From: an uncultured Coriobacteriaceae bacterium
Lineage (GTDB): Bacteria > Actinomycetota > Coriobacteriia > Coriobacteriales > Coriobacteriaceae
Assembly: GCA_944320725.1 (NCBI GenBank)
Contig: CALUIM010000013.1
Span: 1 to 64,000, forward strand
DNA: 64,000 nt
Reading direction: 5' to 3'
Positions 179 to 51,379 of this stretch are shown piece after piece; positions within the stretch are counted from its first letter, which is position 1; every line of letters begins with the position of its first letter. A model generated the notes under the pieces. The model was not told the DNA's origin and made no database searches. It worked only from the letters and a program-made list of their open reading frames with translations. The translations under genes were made by a program, and so were the position numbers.

Positions 179-1819
179 CTAAGAAGGAAAGGCTTCGAGT
201 TTCAGGATCTCGTTTTCGATATCGACCTTATATACCTGCTTGCGGTCTTCTACCTGGTTGCGGTACATGCTGTCAAGGCTCATGGTCCAGCCGATGAGGG
301 GCGAACGCCTATCCTTCATGCGATTCATCTGCTGATTGGGGTCGGCTAGCAGCTTTTTGGATGATCCCCTCTTCATGTAATTCATGATGGAGATAAGCTG
401 CCATACCCCCTCCTGCGTTTCCTTTATGCCGAAGGCGTTTTTCAGCTTGGCGACGATGAAACCTAGCGAGAAGAACAAGTCTTCGTGCCCCTCGCACATG
501 GCGCAAATCGAGATGACCATGACGCACTGAATATGGAAGAGGGAATTCTTCCTTATGCGAGCTTCCTGCAGCCCATCGACGGCGATTCCGAAAAGCACCC
601 GTGTGTTTCTATCCGAGGCGGGTTTGCCGGCGAGTTTGGACAGTTCCATAAACCATCGGAGGGAGATGGCGACGACTTGTTGGTTGCCCAATTGCTCAGG
701 AAACTGCTCGATCATCTCGCTGTGCTCGACCGTCAGTTTCTCGAGGCCAGCAATCGCGGGGCCGTTGCTTGCCGGCCCCTTAGCCAAGGCGTTGGTGACT
801 TCCGCCCCTATGGCCGATGCCGTTTCGTATGCCTTGTAACCGTCCGAGCAATAACGGAGGTCCTTCAGGGATCCCAGGGCGAATTCGAAACGACTCACGT
901 GCTCGGCCGATGGCACGGCGTTGTTTGTCAGCTTCCTTATCTCCGCCAGCGCGGACATTCTCAAAATGCATGTGCCGTCAATCTTGGACCGATTGCTTTC
1001 AAGGGCTCTGGTCAAGCGTCCCAAATCGTTGTTGCTCTTCTCCACCTTGCCGCGTTTGAGATTGAACTTTGATGCGAAATACCGCATCATCACCTCGATT
1101 TGCGCCCCGTAGCGGTCGAACAGCCCTAGGTCGAGCCCTGATTGGATGATGGTGTCGATTTTTATCCCGCCGCAGTAGGTGTTGGATAGGGCCTTCCATG
1201 CGTTCTGCTCGTCCTCTGGTTTCAAGAAGCCTTTTTCGTCGGGGAGATCCAGGCCTTTCATCAGGAGGTCAACGGAAGCGGAGATGGTTTCCGCCTGTCT
1301 AAGGTCGATGGCGGGAGCTGTTTTCTTCTGGACCTTCTCAGACATGGTTCGTTCTAGGGAGCAAAGTCTATTCCGGATTCTGTTCCTGTCCTCTTCCGAG
1401 ACGTCGGTTTTGCCGAAAAGCTGGACGGCTATTTCGGAGACCAGCTCAATGAGAATTTTCCTGTTCTCCTTGTCGAGATCTGGGGTTCCGAATTTCTCGC
1501 CGAGTTTCCCAAAATCACCCCAGCCCTTGTCCTTCAAATGCTCCGCCAGCGATCGGGCGACACGATCCCCGTCGTACGAAGAAGAGTCTTCTCCGATCCG
1601 AAACGCAGCGTTAAGCAGCACCTTCAGCACCTCGATGGTGCTGTCGCAAAATGCTGGGCTTCCCGACAAGATGAAGTTTCGAAAAAACCTTCTGGAGGGG
1701 AGAGCCGTGCTCACGACCTGCCATTTTCCCGGCTCGATCATAGTTGTTCCAAAGCATGCCTTCAGGAGGTCGTTTAAGACTCTGGCGGTGTCGTTTAGCT
1801 CCTTCGTCTCCTTGTCCAT
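179..1819 (-). CDS. hypothetical protein, 546 aa
   Basis: I do not recognise this protein. It is soluble-looking: no signal peptide, no membrane helix, rich in Lys, Glu and Leu, and probably mostly helical. No nucleotide-binding or catalytic motif is evident. The start is supported by an AAGGAGG site seven bases before the ATG. It shares its strand with the partial gene at the window edge and lies near a Pycsar operon, so a role in the same accessory island is possible, but this is inference from position only. Confidence 0.7.
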   Translation of the reverse strand: MDKETKELNDTARVLNDLLKACFGTTMIEPGKWQVVSTALPSRRFFRNFILSGSPAFCDSTIEVLKVLLNAAFRIGEDSSSYDGDRVARSLAEHLKDKGWGDFGKLGEKFGTPDLDKENRKILIELVSEIAVQLFGKTDVSEEDRNRIRNRLCSLERTMSEKVQKKTAPAIDLRQAETISASVDLLMKGLDLPDEKGFLKPEDEQNAWKALSNTYCGGIKIDTIIQSGLDLGLFDRYGAQIEVMMRYFASKFNLKRGKVEKSNNDLGRLTRALESNRSKIDGTCILRMSALAEIRKLTNNAVPSAEHVSRFEFALGSLKDLRYCSDGYKAYETASAIGAEVTNALAKGPASNGPAIAGLEKLTVEHSEMIEQFPEQLGNQQVVAISLRWFMELSKLAGKPASDRNTRVLFGIAVDGLQEARIRKNSLFHIQCVMVISICAMCEGHEDLFFSLGFIVAKLKNAFGIKETQEGVWQLISIMNYMKRGSSKKLLADPNQQMNRMKDRRSPLIGWTMSLDSMYRNQVEDRKQVYKVDIENEILKLEAFPS

Positions 1820-45532: not shown

Positions 45533-46396
45533 TTAAGCCGTGTTCCCATCGTGCTCATAGCGGCCGCTCAGGGCATACCAACCGTTGTGCTCGGTCACTT
45601 CGAGCGGTACGCCAAACAGCGCTGTCATCTCGTCGCTGGTGAGCAGCTCGGCCTTGGGGCCATCGGCGAAGACCTCGGCATCTTTGATAAGCAGCACGCG
45701 TCCGATGGCGGGGATGATGTCCTCGGGGTAGTGCGTGACGAGCACCACCGAGCGTCCCTCTTCTGCCAGCACGCGCATGGTGTCGCGCACATGATACATG
45801 CCCTCGGGATCGAGGCCGGTGCAGGGCTCATCGAAGATGAGGACCTTCGGATCGCTGATGAGCTCGCGTGCCACGAGGACGCGGCGCACCTGGCCAGTGG
45901 AAAGCGTCGTGACGTCGCGCTCTGCCAAATCAACGATGTCCAAGCGGTCGAGCGCCTCGAGCGCGCGGGGCATCACGGTGTCGTCGATCTCGGCGCGCAG
46001 CGGCAACCCGAGCGAGCCAAAGAGCCCGCCCGCCACGATCTCGCGCACAGGAAGGTGCACGCGCACCTGGTCGTGCATGGTGGCCGAGACAATGCCGAGC
46101 GCCTGCTTGATATCGGCGAGCACCGGTCGCGCCTGCCCGCGAAAGCGCACCGGCGGCTCGTCGCGGTGGAGCGGGAAGATCTCGCGGGTGAGCAGCTGGA
46201 TGAACGTGGACTTGCCGGCGCCGTTGGGGCCCAAGAGCGCCACGTGCTCGCCCTCGGCAAGATCGAACCGTTCGACGTTTAAAATCGTGCGTCCGGCACG
46301 CACCACCTGGGCCTCGCGTAGCGAAAAGAGTGGCGGTGCGGCGGGCGCGGCCACCTGCGCGCGGCGCTGGGCGTCTTCGATCGTGCAGTGCTCCAT
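45533..46396 (-). CDS. ABC transporter ATP-binding protein (ModF/YlmA-like), 287 aa
   Basis: Walker A is GPNGAGKST (56-64), Walker B is KVLIFDEPCTGLD and the H-loop is LVTHYPEDI. The signature is LSTGQVRR, a mild change from LSGGQ. The long first 25 residues and THYPEDIIPAI resemble the YlmA/ModF-type soluble ATPases. No permease gene is adjacent, so the transport partner is unknown or absent. No ribosome binding site stands out clearly. Confidence 0.82.
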   Translation of the reverse strand: MEHCTIEDAQRRAQVAAPAAPPLFSLREAQVVRAGRTILNVERFDLAEGEHVALLGPNGAGKSTFIQLLTREIFPLHRDEPPVRFRGQARPVLADIKQALGIVSATMHDQVRVHLPVREIVAGGLFGSLGLPLRAEIDDTVMPRALEALDRLDIVDLAERDVTTLSTGQVRRVLVARELISDPKVLIFDEPCTGLDPEGMYHVRDTMRVLAEEGRSVVLVTHYPEDIIPAIGRVLLIKDAEVFADGPKAELLTSDEMTALFGVPLEVTEHNGWYALSGRYEHDGNTA

Positions 46397-46546
46397 GCGA
46401 TGCCTCCGATAGTCGATGTATCTCGCCTACTGTACTACACCATCGTGCGCACGCGTGCATGGCGGAAGCGTTCACCCACCTGTAACCAAGCGCCGGCGCG
46501 CCCGTGCTATTCTTGGACGGTATTGCCAAAAAGAGAGGGGACGCAG

Positions 46547-47767
46547 ATGCCAGAGACGCTCACGCTCGACGCCTTCGAGACGGCGGCCGAGAAGGTCAAG
46601 GAGGTCACGCAGAAGACGGAGCTCATCGAGAGTCCGTATTTCAGCCAGGCCACAGGCAACCGCATCTTCTTCAAGCCCGAGAACATGCAGCGCACCGGCG
46701 CCTACAAGGTGCGCGGCGCGTACTACAAGATCAGCACGCTCTCGCCTGAAGAGCTGGGGCACGGCCTTATCGCGGCAAGCGCCGGCAACCACGCGCAGGG
46801 CGTGGCGTACGCTGCGGCGCGCGCAGGCGTGAAGTCGGTGGTGGTCATGCCCACCACCACGCCGCTCATCAAGGTCGAGCGCACCAAGGGCTACGGCGCC
46901 GAGGTCATCCTCCACGGCGATGTCTACGACGAGTCGTGCGACTTTGCCATGCAGCTTGCCGAGGAGCGCGGCTACACGTTCATCCATCCCTTCAACGATC
47001 CGGTGGTGGCAACCGGCCAGGGCACGATCGCGATGGAGATCGTTCAGGAGTTGCCGCTCGTAGATACCATTCTCGTGCCCGTGGGCGGCGGCGGGCTTGC
47101 GTGCGGCGTGGCGACCTTTGCCAAGCTCTATAACCCCAAGATCCGTGTGATTGGCGTCGAGCCGGAGGGTGCGCCCTCGCTTACGGCGGCGCTCGAGGCG
47201 GGGCATCCGGTGCGCCTGCCGAGTGCCAACACCATTGCCGATGGCACAGCTGTCCTCGAGGTGGGCGATGCGGTGTTCCCGTATCTCAAGGACAACCTCG
47301 ACGACGTTATCACGGTGCCCGACGAGGAGCTTATCGTGGCGTTCCTCGATATGGTGGAGAACCACAAGATGATTGTCGAGAACTCGGGCCTGCTGACCGT
47401 GGCGGCGCTCAAGCACCTGCCCGCCGAGAACCGTCGTATCGCTGCGATTCTCTCGGGCGGCAACATGGATGTCATCACCATGTCGTCGGTGGTGCAGCAC
47501 GGCCTCATCCAGCGCGACCGCATCTTCACGATCTCTGTGCTGCTGCCCGATCGCCCCGGTATGCTGCTGGGCGTGGCGGGTATCATCGCCGAGCAGAACG
47601 GCAACGTGATCAAGCTCGAGCACAACCAGTTCGTGAGCACCAACCGCAACGCCGCGGTAGAGCTGCGCGTTACCATCGAGGCGTATGGTACCGACCACAA
47701 GAACCAAATCGTGGCAGCGCTCGAGGCGGGCGGCTTTAAGCCCTCCATCGTGCAGACCTCGCTCTAG
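46547..47767 (+). CDS. ilvA: threonine ammonia-lyase with ACT domain, 406 aa
   Basis: The PLP lysine is K54 in RTGAYKVRGA, and the phosphate-binding GGGGLACGVATF is in place. A single ACT domain occupies the last 80 residues (RIFTISVLLPDRPGMLLGVA). The short form with one ACT domain (about 400 aa) is common in Gram-positives and makes 2-oxobutanoate for isoleucine. With ilvD-ilvB-ilvN-ilvC nearby this fits biosynthesis. I chose the ATG at 46547; the reading frame is open far upstream but without family similarity. Confidence 0.92.
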   Translation: MPETLTLDAFETAAEKVKEVTQKTELIESPYFSQATGNRIFFKPENMQRTGAYKVRGAYYKISTLSPEELGHGLIAASAGNHAQGVAYAAARAGVKSVVVMPTTTPLIKVERTKGYGAEVILHGDVYDESCDFAMQLAEERGYTFIHPFNDPVVATGQGTIAMEIVQELPLVDTILVPVGGGGLACGVATFAKLYNPKIRVIGVEPEGAPSLTAALEAGHPVRLPSANTIADGTAVLEVGDAVFPYLKDNLDDVITVPDEELIVAFLDMVENHKMIVENSGLLTVAALKHLPAENRRIAAILSGGNMDVITMSSVVQHGLIQRDRIFTISVLLPDRPGMLLGVAGIIAEQNGNVIKLEHNQFVSTNRNAAVELRVTIEAYGTDHKNQIVAALEAGGFKPSIVQTSL

Positions 47768-47791: not shown

Positions 47792-49333
47792 CTATTGGTA
47801 TCTGGCGAGCGCGTCCCAGAAGATCGCGCCATCGGTGCGATAGGGTACGAACGCGGAGCCCACGTGTTGTAGCGCCTCGTCGCCCTTGCCGAGCAGTGCC
47901 ACAACTGTGCGCTCGGGGCTCGTGCAAGCAAGCTCGACCGCGCGGCAAATCGCATCCTCGCGGTCACAGATGATTTCATACGGGGTGCCGGCCGGCGTTG
48001 CAGCGGCCATCTCGGCGCAGATTGCGGTGGGCTCTTCGTGGGCGGGATCCTCTTCCGTGAAGATGAGCGTATCGGCCCAGCGCGCTGCTTCCTGCGGGAG
48101 CTCATGGCGGCGTTCCTGCGCCTTGCCGCCCGGCGCACCGAGCACCACGACGATGCGCCGGGCGGGAAACTCCTTTGCAAGCGAGGAGAAGAGTCCCTGG
48201 TAGGAAAGCTTGTTGTGGGCATAGTCCACGAGACCCACCACGTGTGGCTCGTTGCCGCCCTCGACGGCGGGCACGAGCAGCTCCATGCGTCCGGGCACCT
48301 GCGCGCGGCTCAGCGCATGCACGATGCGCTCGCGGTCCACGCCAACAAGCTCGGCGATGGCAATCGCGGCAAGTGCGTTATCCACATTGAACAGCCCCGG
48401 CATGGCCAGCTGCACCTGTGCCTTCCACGTGGGGGTGTGTACGCAAAACTGCACACGACCCAGCGAGGTGGTGATATCGCTTGCCCAAACGGTGGCGCCC
48501 TCACGTCCAGATGCAGAGAACGTGACCATCTGCTCGCAGGATGCGGCGCGGGCGAGTACCTCGTCAACATGCTCGGTATCGAGGTTCACCACCGCGACGC
48601 GCGTCTGGTCGAACATGCTCAGCTTCGAGGCGAAATAGTCCTCGAACGTGGGGTGCTCGACCGGCGAGATGTGGTCGCGCCCAATGTTTAGGAAGCATCC
48701 GATGTCGAACGTGAGCCCCACCACACGCTCATACTTGAGCGCCTGGCTCGAGACCTCCATATCGAGGTAGGGAAGGCCCGCCGTGCGCATGTTTGCGATG
48801 AGGCGCCATAGGTCGGGCGACTCGGGCGTGGTGTTAACGCTTTCAATCTCGGTGAGGCCGTCGTAGGTGTTGATCGACCCGATGACACCGGTGCCCGATC
48901 CCGGTACCGTGCCATCAAGGATGGTGCGCAGCATGTACGACACCGTGGACTTGCCTTTGGTGCCGGTGATGCCAATAACGGTGAGGTCGCGGTCGGGGTG
49001 GCCCCACGCCGCCGCGGAAACCAATGCCATCGCATGGCGCACGTCATGCGTGATGAGGGCTGGCACGCCGGGCGTGGCAGCCTCGAGCTCATCCGCGAGC
49101 TCTTCGGCGCAAAGATAGGCAACCGCTCCGCGCTCGATCGCGCCGGCGAGGTATGCCGGCTTGAACGCCGCCCCCTTGCACACGAAGAGGTGTCCGGGCT
49201 GTACGATGCGCGAGTCGCAATCGGCGCCCGTGATGGGTGTCGAGTGGGTGGCATCGGTTGCGTTGCGTGTGCCTGCAAGCAGGTTGTGCTCGGCTAAGAG
49301 CGCAGCGAGCGAGGCGAAAGTCACCGTATCCAT
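47792..49333 (-). CDS. murE: UDP-MurNAc-tripeptide synthetase (MurE-type Mur ligase), 513 aa
   Basis: The ATP site is VIGITGTKGKSTVSYML, and substrate blocks NTTPESPDLWRLI and LDMEVSSQALKYERV are present. The motif that selects meso-diaminopimelate (DNPR) is replaced by EDPAHEEP, so the third residue added is more likely lysine or ornithine. It adds the diamino acid to UDP-MurNAc-Ala-Glu in the cytoplasm. I chose the ATG at 49333; the frame continues upstream antisense to ilvD with no similarity. The ribosome binding site is poor. Confidence 0.88.
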   Translation of the reverse strand: MDTVTFASLAALLAEHNLLAGTRNATDATHSTPITGADCDSRIVQPGHLFVCKGAAFKPAYLAGAIERGAVAYLCAEELADELEAATPGVPALITHDVRHAMALVSAAAWGHPDRDLTVIGITGTKGKSTVSYMLRTILDGTVPGSGTGVIGSINTYDGLTEIESVNTTPESPDLWRLIANMRTAGLPYLDMEVSSQALKYERVVGLTFDIGCFLNIGRDHISPVEHPTFEDYFASKLSMFDQTRVAVVNLDTEHVDEVLARAASCEQMVTFSASGREGATVWASDITTSLGRVQFCVHTPTWKAQVQLAMPGLFNVDNALAAIAIAELVGVDRERIVHALSRAQVPGRMELLVPAVEGGNEPHVVGLVDYAHNKLSYQGLFSSLAKEFPARRIVVVLGAPGGKAQERRHELPQEAARWADTLIFTEEDPAHEEPTAICAEMAAATPAGTPYEIICDREDAICRAVELACTSPERTVVALLGKGDEALQHVGSAFVPYRTDGAIFWDALARYQ

Positions 49334-49464
49334 AGGTTGAAGTATACGAAGTTTTTGCCCTGGGGTGGCGAAGTGCCGCTCACCGATAATTCTGTTTCGA
49401 GACCGTTTCATGTTGCGGTGTCTTACCTGCGGCATTGGCATTGGACGGAGAATGAACAAACTCA

Positions 49465-49714
49465 GCAAATGCGATGACAGGGCGAGTACCGGACGTACGT
49501 GCCACAGCGAGCGGGGGAGCGTGAGAACCCGCGGCGAACGGTCGGGAACACACCCTCGAGCTGCTCGGCTGAACGCATGCCCCACGCGCGAGCGAACCTC
49601 GTGACGGAACGGATGCCTGTACGCCGCGCCGTAAGCCCCCGTTACGGGCATCGAGAGCGCCTGTTCCTCGCTTGTTCGAGTACCGAGGTACCTGTTTGGG
49701 AAGCGAGGTTCTAC
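49465..49714 (+). promoter_or_regulatory. T-box-like leader of the ilv operon, with SD-sequestering stem
   Basis: In order: GATGACAGGGCGAGTA (stem I base with AGTA), CAGCGAGCGGGGGAGCGTGA (distal loop), GGGAACACACCCTCGAG (specifier side), GTAAGCCCCCGTTACGGGC (stem II/III region) and GAGAGCG. These follow the T-box order. The end forms CCTCGCTT (49666-49673) with AAGCGAGG (49701-49708), which hides the ribosome binding site of ilvD, implying control of translation. By alignment with glyQS-type leaders the specifier would be ACA at 49550-49552. I could not find the full 14-base T-box consensus. Confidence 0.7.
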
Positions 49715-51379
49715 ATGCAGATGCGCAGCGATGCCGTGAAGAAGGGGTTGGCGCGAGCGCCCCACCGAAGTCTCCTCAAGGCCGACGGCCTCACCGATGA
49801 AGAACTCGAGCGACCGCTTGTAGCGGTGGTCTCGGCGCAAAACGAGGTTATTCCCGGACATTTGCACCTTCAGCAGATCGCCGATGCCGTGAAGGCCGGT
49901 GTGCGCATGGCCGGCGGCACGCCGCTGCAGATCAACACCATCGGCGTGTGCGACGGCATCGCTATGAACCACGAGGGCATGCACTACAGCCTGGTGTCGC
50001 GCGAGGTCATCGCCGACTCCGTGGAGTGTGCCATCCAGGGGCACCAGTTCGACGCGATGGTGCTCATTCCCTCCTGCGACAAGATCGTGCCCGGCATGCT
50101 CATCGCCGCGGCGCGCCTGAACATCCCTACGATGCTCGTATCGGGCGGCCCCATGCTCGCGGGCCACGACAAGTGCGGACACCAGACCGACCTCAACACG
50201 CTCTTCGACGCCGTGGGCCAGGTTACCGCTGGCACCATGACGCCTGAGGAATGCGCATGGCTCGAGAACACTGCCTGCCCCACCTGCGGTAGTTGCTCGG
50301 GCATGTTCACCGCGAACTCCATTTGCTGCCTTGCCGAGGCGCTTGGCTTGGCGCTCCCCGGCAACGGCACGGTTCCCGCCGTGTTCTCCGAGCGCATTCG
50401 CCTGGCCAAGCAAACGGGCATGAAGGTCATGGAGCTTGTTGAGCAGGGCATCTGCGCGCTCGACATCCTGTCGGTCGATGCCGTGTACAACGGCATGGTG
50501 CTCGACATGGCCTTCGGCGGTTCCACCAACACGATGCTGCACCTCACCGCTATTGCACAGGCGGCTGGGTGCCCCGTCACCATGGAGGACTGGGACCGCG
50601 TGAGCGCCAAGACCCCCAACATCGTGCGCATCGCGCCGGCCGGCCCGCTGCACATCGAGGACCTCAACGCCGTGGGCGGCATCTCCGCAATCATGGGCGA
50701 GCTGGGGCGCGGCGGGCTCTTGCACGGCGGCGCGCTCACCTGCCACGGCACGGTTGACGAGTGGGTTGCGGCGGCGCCGGCGGCAGACGGCGAGATTGTC
50801 CGCACGCTCGATCGTGCCTATTCGCCCATTGGTGGCCTCAAGGTCATGCAGGGCAACCTCGCCCCCAGCTGCGGCGTGGTCAAGCGTTCTGCCTGCGCGC
50901 CCGAGATGTATACGCATTCCGGCCCGGCTCGCGTGTTTAACAGCGAGGAAGAGGCGTGCGAGGCCATCTTCGGCGGCAAGATCAAACCCGGCGACGTCGT
51001 GGTGATTCGCTACGAGGGCCCGGCGGGTGGTCCAGGTATGCGCGAGATGCTCACGCCCACCTCGGCCATCTGCGGCATGGGGCTCGACAAATCGGTGGCC
51101 CTCATCACCGACGGGCGCTTCTCCGGCGCCTCCAAGGGCCCGTGCATTGGCCACGTCTCGCCCGAGGCGGCCGCAGGCGGTCCCATCGCGCTTGTCGAGG
51201 AAGGCGACATCATCGACATCGACATCGAGGCGGGCGCGCTCAACGTGCGCGTGTCGGATGACGAGCTCGCTCGTCGTCGCGCCGCATGGCAGCCGCCTGC
51301 ACCGAAATATACCAGCGGCGTGCTTTCGCGCTACGCAAAGCTCGTCACGAGCGCCGATAAGGGGGCGTATCTCTCATGA
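49715..51379 (+). CDS. ilvD: dihydroxy-acid dehydratase, 554 aa
   Basis: The iron-sulfur cysteines are in [23 protein letters not shown] and [13 protein letters not shown]. The end block [20 protein letters not shown] holds the active-site serine region. The enzyme makes the 2-oxo acids of valine and isoleucine. GCGAGG precedes the ATG at 49715 and can be masked by the leader hairpin. The stop overlaps the ilvB start (ATGA). Length is normal. Confidence 0.95.

Follow-up and report, generated by a model that had tools for sequence, protein, structure and literature searches.

In known T-boxes, a UGGN sequence pairs with the NCCA end of a tRNA and a discriminator senses whether that tRNA is charged (PMC7583486, PMC7778990). 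A 2020 review (PMC7583486) describes the discriminator as essential and as essentially identical in all known T-boxes, the specifier as forming three Watson-Crick pairs, and the purine that follows the specifier as functionally critical.

The DNA studied here, hereafter the window, is a stretch of 64,000 nucleotides from a Coriobacteriaceae genome near Collinsella, whose nearest ilvD relatives are from uncultured Coriobacteriaceae (the closest with 98% protein identity). The ilvD gene, encoding dihydroxy-acid dehydratase (49715..51379, +; TIGR00110 match, 749 bits), is the first in an operon with the order ilvD-ilvB-ilvN-ilvC, the downstream genes of which match TIGR00118, TIGR00119 and TIGR00465. 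The intergenic space 5' of ilvD is filled by the leader that is the subject of this analysis. Upstream of ilvD and on the same strand is ilvA (threonine ammonia-lyase, 46388-47767), with murE lying between the two in the opposite orientation. A 1120-codon open frame on the minus strand (47792-51154) represents murE together with an antisense extension across the leader and ilvD, and the true start of murE is probably near 49333.

Rfam model RF00230 aligned to the leader over the full length of the model (49465-49697, +) with a score of 43.1 bits and an E value of 2.7e-8. A preliminary description of the window had proposed a leader at this place with a T-box-type order of elements, and both proposals were borne out by the match and by covariation of Stem I, Stem II and the IIA/B pseudoknot among 52 relatives. 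That description had also named the T-box covariance model as the means of reading the specifier; the check produced the match above, but at a score below the RF00230 gathering score of 93 bits, and the specifier placed by Rfam was CAC. Two other leaders from the same genome, that of ileS (specifier AUC and an intact UGGU T box, GGGUGGUAUAGC) and that of pheS (specifier UUC and an intact UGGU T box, GGUGGUACCGCGG), scored 47.8 and 43.0 bits, respectively, and are also below the gathering score, which indicated that a low RF00230 score is normal for this clade. A model made from relatives scored the window at 185.5 bits, although the window was itself among the training sequences, and the independent support is therefore the covariation across the 52 sequences.

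The alignment comprised 52 ilvD leaders of 186-191 nt from Coriobacteriaceae, Atopobiaceae and Slackia. As RNAalifold run on this alignment missed Stem II, helices were assigned by hand according to T-box anatomy (36 named pairs), and the resulting structure was then tested on the alignment. In the 52 leaders, 94.7% of cells were paired in the hand-named structure compared to 84.4% after shuffling, and 19 pairs changed on both sides compared to 10.9 (0/500 shuffles reached as high a number). The covariation score was 0.271 versus 0.106 in shuffles, and versions in which the structure had been slid along the alignment all scored far lower. Stem I, Stem II and the IIA/B pseudoknot are real. Mutual information on the alignment mainly reflected the divergence of Coriobacteriaceae from Atopobiaceae, and the stability of the single-sequence fold of the whole leader was not above that of shuffles (z = +0.9), a comparison that is little informative for so GC-rich a sequence.

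The leader has a long Stem I with a kink-turn and a loop E specifier loop, interdigitated T-loops for the tRNA elbow that are mostly invariant, and, as supported by covariation, a Stem II S-turn and a IIA/B pseudoknot (Table 1). When mapped on the ilvD tree, the columns of the elbow platform, kink-turn and loop E had undergone 0-2 changes at nearly all positions, with the exception of columns 44 and 45, which are variable. Within the apical loop of Stem II, the A had changed once, the last C had not changed, and the position between them had changed 16 times. The pattern of this loop was also observed in Eggerthellaceae ilvD leaders.

Table 1. Features of the ilvD leader in the window and the basis for their assignment.
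Feature	Position	Strand	Basis
Stem I, T-box type, with basal kink-turn (GAUGAC / CGA)	49471..49561	+	Rfam alignment; helix covariation, 52 leaders
AGGG-C-G-AGUA, 5' strand of lower helix and specifier loop with loop E motif	49479..49488	+	Columns nearly invariant
First T-loop AGCGA, tRNA-elbow platform (IDTM; consensus AGAGA)	49506..49510	+	Alignment; PMC7583486 consensus
Second T-loop UGAGA, elbow platform (consensus UGxRA)	49522..49526	+	Alignment; PMC7583486 consensus
Loop E GAA and spacer C, pairing with G49484	49546..49549	+	Pair column 18-87 covaries
Specifier position, ACA (Thr) here	49550..49552	+	Ile or Thr codons in 59/62 leaders
CCCUCGAGC, 3' strand of lower helix and kink-turn, directly 3' of codon	49553..49561	+	Covariation; comparison with own ileS/pheS leaders
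Stem II with loop E / S-turn (GAA 49571-49573, UGUA 49618-49621)	49566..49626	+	Helices 7 and 8 covary in every pair
Stem II apical loop CGAAC, conserved as N-N-A-[U/C/A]-C	49593..49597	+	Changes on ilvD tree
Stem IIA/B pseudoknot, CCGUUA motif	49630..49649	+	Helices 10 and 11 covary
Pairing within IIA and IIB	IIA, 49630-49631 with 49640-49641; IIB, 49635-49637 with 49647-49649	+	
CGAG, proposed 5' strand of antisequestrator; could pair with CUCG 49667-49670	49652..49655	+	Sequence; CGAGG/CCUCG hairpin of many relatives; inferred
Anti-Shine-Dalgarno strand CCUCGCUU	49666..49673	+	Folding; hairpins of relatives
Shine-Dalgarno region AAGCGAGG, predicted to be sequestered by 49666-49673	49701..49708	+	Folding; hairpins of relatives

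Two registers were considered for the specifier. Locating the triplet by its distance from the 3' strand, with the spacing of the ileS and pheS leaders (codon, A, five bases, GAGC), gave CAC followed by A, in agreement with the Rfam alignment, and locating it from GAA plus one spacer base gave ACA. The spacer column 87 (49549) pairs with column 18 (49484), the pair being G-C in 24, C-G in 17 and non-standard in 10 of 51 leaders. As this pair covaries and lies just outside the codon, columns 88-90 (ACA) are the free triplet before CCCUCGAGC. CAC (His) was rejected on account of this covariation, which links the base 3' of GAA to the base 5' of AGUA, and also because that register would read His, Asp and Asn among the relatives. 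A shift towards CUC (Leu) was rejected as well, since its bases are paired in the window and the triplet is not kept in Coriobacteriaceae. ACA at 49550-49552, the specifier originally suggested, is thus the best-supported register, and the suggestion that the window lacks an Ile, Leu or Val codon at this position holds in the CAC register also. The specifier loop is one base shorter on each strand than in ileS, and in the ACA register the conserved purine after the specifier is absent from the ilvD leaders, the next base being a paired C.

The triplet could be read in 62 ilvD leaders and was mapped on the ilvD tree. ACU was the most frequent (28), followed by AUA (14), ACA (6), ACC (5) and AUU (5), with AUC, AAU, AGA and CCA each found once, such that 39/62 leaders had ACN and 20/62 had AUN. 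The first base was A in 61/62 leaders, the second a pyrimidine in 60/62, and the third was never G. At a minimum, the first base had changed once on the tree, the second 10 times and the third 6 times, with about 15 changes of the codon in total, and a conserved specifier fitting the amino acid of the operon was therefore not found among the 62 ilvD leaders. ACU is fixed in nearly all Atopobiaceae, and AUA is the triplet of L106, the window's closest relative. Control leaders from the same clade had constant codons (AUC in 30/30 for ileS and UUC in all 22 that were readable for pheS), which indicated that the drift belongs to ilvD and is not an artefact of the method. The pattern of A, then a pyrimidine, then any base except G corresponds almost exactly to the Ile and Thr codons taken together. 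It may reflect continued use of a tRNA with U36, or it may have arisen from transition bias together with avoidance of a G that would pair with the invariant opposite C (column 17). An Ile reading would also be odd, as AUA and AUU each make up about 1% of Ile specifiers in TBDB.

A search of the sequence 3' of Stem I, as far as the start codon, identified GGUGG in 0/62 ilvD leaders (4.9 in shuffles) versus 28/28 ileS controls, and both the ileS and the pheS control leaders of the clade carry this sequence. Any UGG was itself depleted, being present in 25/62 ilvD leaders versus 44.5 +/- 3.3 in shuffles. The possibility of a T-box bulge hidden elsewhere was rejected, as none was conserved within the region searched. 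The sole UGG of the window leader is a UGGG within the Shine-Dalgarno (SD) arm. The tRNA-Thr genes of the genome (UGU and CGU) end in UCCA (U73) and tRNA-Ile ends in ACCA; a Thr T-box would therefore need UGGA, and neither UGGA nor UGGU was found in the window leader. One relative, L114, carries an isolated UGGUACCGC that is identical to a T-box bulge and lies about 31 bases 5' of ilvD, within the loop of the hairpin that hides the SD. It may be a relic or have arisen by chance, and the corresponding sequence in the window is AGGUACC.

The preliminary description had raised the possibility that the operon senses charging of tRNA-Thr. This was not sustained, based on the AUA of the nearest relative, the variation of Ile and Thr codons in the clade, the missing UGGN bulge and UGGA, and the replacement of the post-codon purine by a paired C. 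If tRNA-Thr were instead sensed via a non-canonical 3' contact, the apparent Ile codons would represent wobble variants of Thr codons: A-Y-H codons can pair with an NGU anticodon at the first two positions by Watson-Crick or G-U pairs, the ACN and AUN triplets together fit such pairing, and changes at the second position are mostly between C and U, as expected opposite G35. In addition, threonine is the precursor of isoleucine, and ilvA is just upstream. We consider this explanation unlikely, however, as C/U exchanges also arise from transition bias alone, a G-U pair at the centre would be unusual, the third base of ACU and AUU is U, AUA and AUU are the rare TBDB codons noted above, and there is no UGGA to match U73 of tRNA-Thr. 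Moreover, switching on isoleucine synthesis under a shortage of threonine would make little physiological sense. Sensing of tRNA-Ile, with a C-A mismatch tolerated in mid-specifier and the 3' end read by unrecognised means, would fit the product of the operon, the AUA, AUC or AUU found in 20/62 leaders, and the interchange of Ile and Thr codons. We nevertheless regard it as quite improbable, since the commonest Ile version, AUA, requires the minor lysidine tRNA, ACU predominates so completely in Atopobiaceae, and the UGGU required for A73 of tRNA-Ile is absent.

Downstream of IIA/B, CCUCGC(A)UUUC pairs with GGGAAGCGAGG just 5' of the start codon, and 49666-49673 was paired with 49701-49708 in the fold of the 3' part of the window leader. 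The SD arm was paired in 47/55 leaders of relatives when the hairpin was folded in isolation. These results agree with the earlier proposal of a stem that hides the ribosome binding site, and the SD-hiding hairpin, a prediction from folding, is conserved. A clear alternative hairpin between this strand and an upstream CGAGG is possible in leaders of the Olsenella type. The sequestrator is thus well supported, but the alternative pairing in the window, CGAG/CUCG, is weak at only 4 bp, and a permissive search found an antisequestrator of 4-6 bp in most relatives; the energy of this duplex was not significant against shuffles in either of the two sequences tested. Both arms had changed together in the C. 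tanakaei group, as judged by eye. A decayed T-box with no regulatory function would account for the missing discriminator and the drifting specifier, but we think it highly improbable given that compensatory changes hold the stems across three groups, that the length is confined to 186-191 nt in 52 leaders, and that the SD-hiding hairpin is conserved.

The leader works like a T-box and descends from one. Since two defining features of T-boxes were looked for and not found, we place it outside the T-boxes proper and regard it as probably an unusual descendant of them, not a simple threonine sensor. Based on the near invariance of the T-loops and loop E, we argue that the body of a tRNA is probably still docked by the leader. 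Which tRNA binds, and the direction of the switch, we infer. The drifting specifier is hard to square with the strict three-pair rule of T-boxes, and tRNA binding itself may therefore have been lost. In that case the T-box scaffold could have been taken over by another ligand, a metabolite or protein, leaving an unused specifier to drift. The codon drift, the loss of the post-codon purine and UGGN, the depletion of UGG and the conserved apical loop of Stem II, for which ordinary T-boxes are not known, would all be in keeping with such a takeover. It appears rather doubtful to us, because the elbow platform and loop E are nearly invariant and an A at the first specifier base in 61/62 leaders would be unexpected if the specifier were unused.

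We tentatively favour, with slightly less than even confidence, a T-box-derived translational leader of ilvDBNC that keeps the tRNA-docking half and has lost the discriminator half. The half retained consists of the kink-turn, the specifier loop with loop E, the elbow platform, IIA/B, and Stem II with its S-turn. In the mechanism that we propose, an Ile/Thr-class tRNA would dock with its U36 facing the conserved A at the first specifier position, and docking would order Stem I, Stem II and IIA/B, steadying the adjoining antisequestrator and thereby opening the ribosome binding site. In this mechanism the CCUCGC strand would pair either with the upstream CGAG, as a short antisequestrator, or with the SD region of ilvD, as the sequestrator. 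With no discriminator, any charging signal must come from elsewhere; the RNA would not inspect the 3' end, and a preference for uncharged tRNA would result from the removal of charged tRNA by EF-Tu. It is also conceivable, and we hold this with more reserve, that the leaders are a clade-wide T-box descendant in which the docking aptamer was kept, the charging sensor dropped and the codon relaxed, and whose signal to the ilv operon is not the charging state of a single tRNA but, for instance, a new ligand or free tRNA whose anticodon has U36.

Leaders of this type were found 5' of ilvD in the Coriobacteriaceae, Atopobiaceae and Slackia genomes that were sampled. A model built from ilvD leaders (R1) was searched in 395 genomes of the order and had matches in 230, some of the weak ones being ileS or pheS leaders; one good model match (L323) had downstream sequence unlike ilvD. 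Leaders of Eggerthellaceae and related genomes (L165-L185, L276-L322) have a specifier loop of normal length and GCC (Ala) in 47/62 parsed loci. This set also contains three loci from Atopobiaceae and at least one leader that probably belongs to pheS. A UGGU-like stretch was often present in the terminator arm of the Eggerthellaceae-type leaders. This Ala specifier precedes a branched-chain operon, and two genomes (G051 and G052) have a CCC specifier; GCC, ACN and CCC resemble Val, Ile and Leu codons, respectively, with the middle U changed to C. In two loci (L298 and L300) a terminator-like T run abuts GGAG and the ilvD start codon, such that the terminator and ribosome binding site may overlap.

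A relative from outside the families that share the window's leader type (G045) carries a canonical T-box before ilvD, its specifier being CUC (Leu) and its T box UGGUACC, which points to a T-box of this kind as the likely origin of the window's leader type. The locus in G045 (L046) has two back-to-back T-boxes, at 1007-1183 (-) and 1503-1690 (+), one of which is before ilvD with the Leu codon. The history was likely one of an ancestral Leu T-box followed by loss of UGGN and shortening of the loop in the lineage of the window, a direction that we infer. A literature search of incomplete coverage found no published description of these leaders.

A conserved family in gut Coriobacteriia that has no discriminator and a relaxed specifier provides a natural case in which to test what the docking half can do alone, and how a T-box changes or loses its ligand. 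It also urges caution, as amino acid specificity deduced from one codon can mislead: such a deduction would give Thr for one species here and Ile for the sister species. The ilvD leader shares with long-Stem I/II T-boxes (RF00230, including its own ileS and pheS leaders) the order and sequence of Stem I elements, the Stem II S-turn, IIA/B and the place upstream of an amino acid operon. Unlike those T-boxes, it has no UGGN or discriminator and no purine after the specifier, its specifier is not conserved, and its specifier loop is shorter by one base per strand. Sherwood et al. 2015 reportedly described translational T-boxes of Actinobacteria ileS genes with an ultrashort Stem I, a fixed AUC and an antisequestrator with UGGN. 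Control by hiding and freeing the SD sequence is likewise predicted here for the ilvD leader, which in contrast has a long Stem I and no UGGN. The Eggerthellaceae ilvD leaders occupy the orthologous position and have the same aptamer as the window leader, as recognized by model R1, but differ in their canonical loop length, conserved GCC, frequent UGGU-like motif and an intrinsic terminator, that is, a transcriptional platform.
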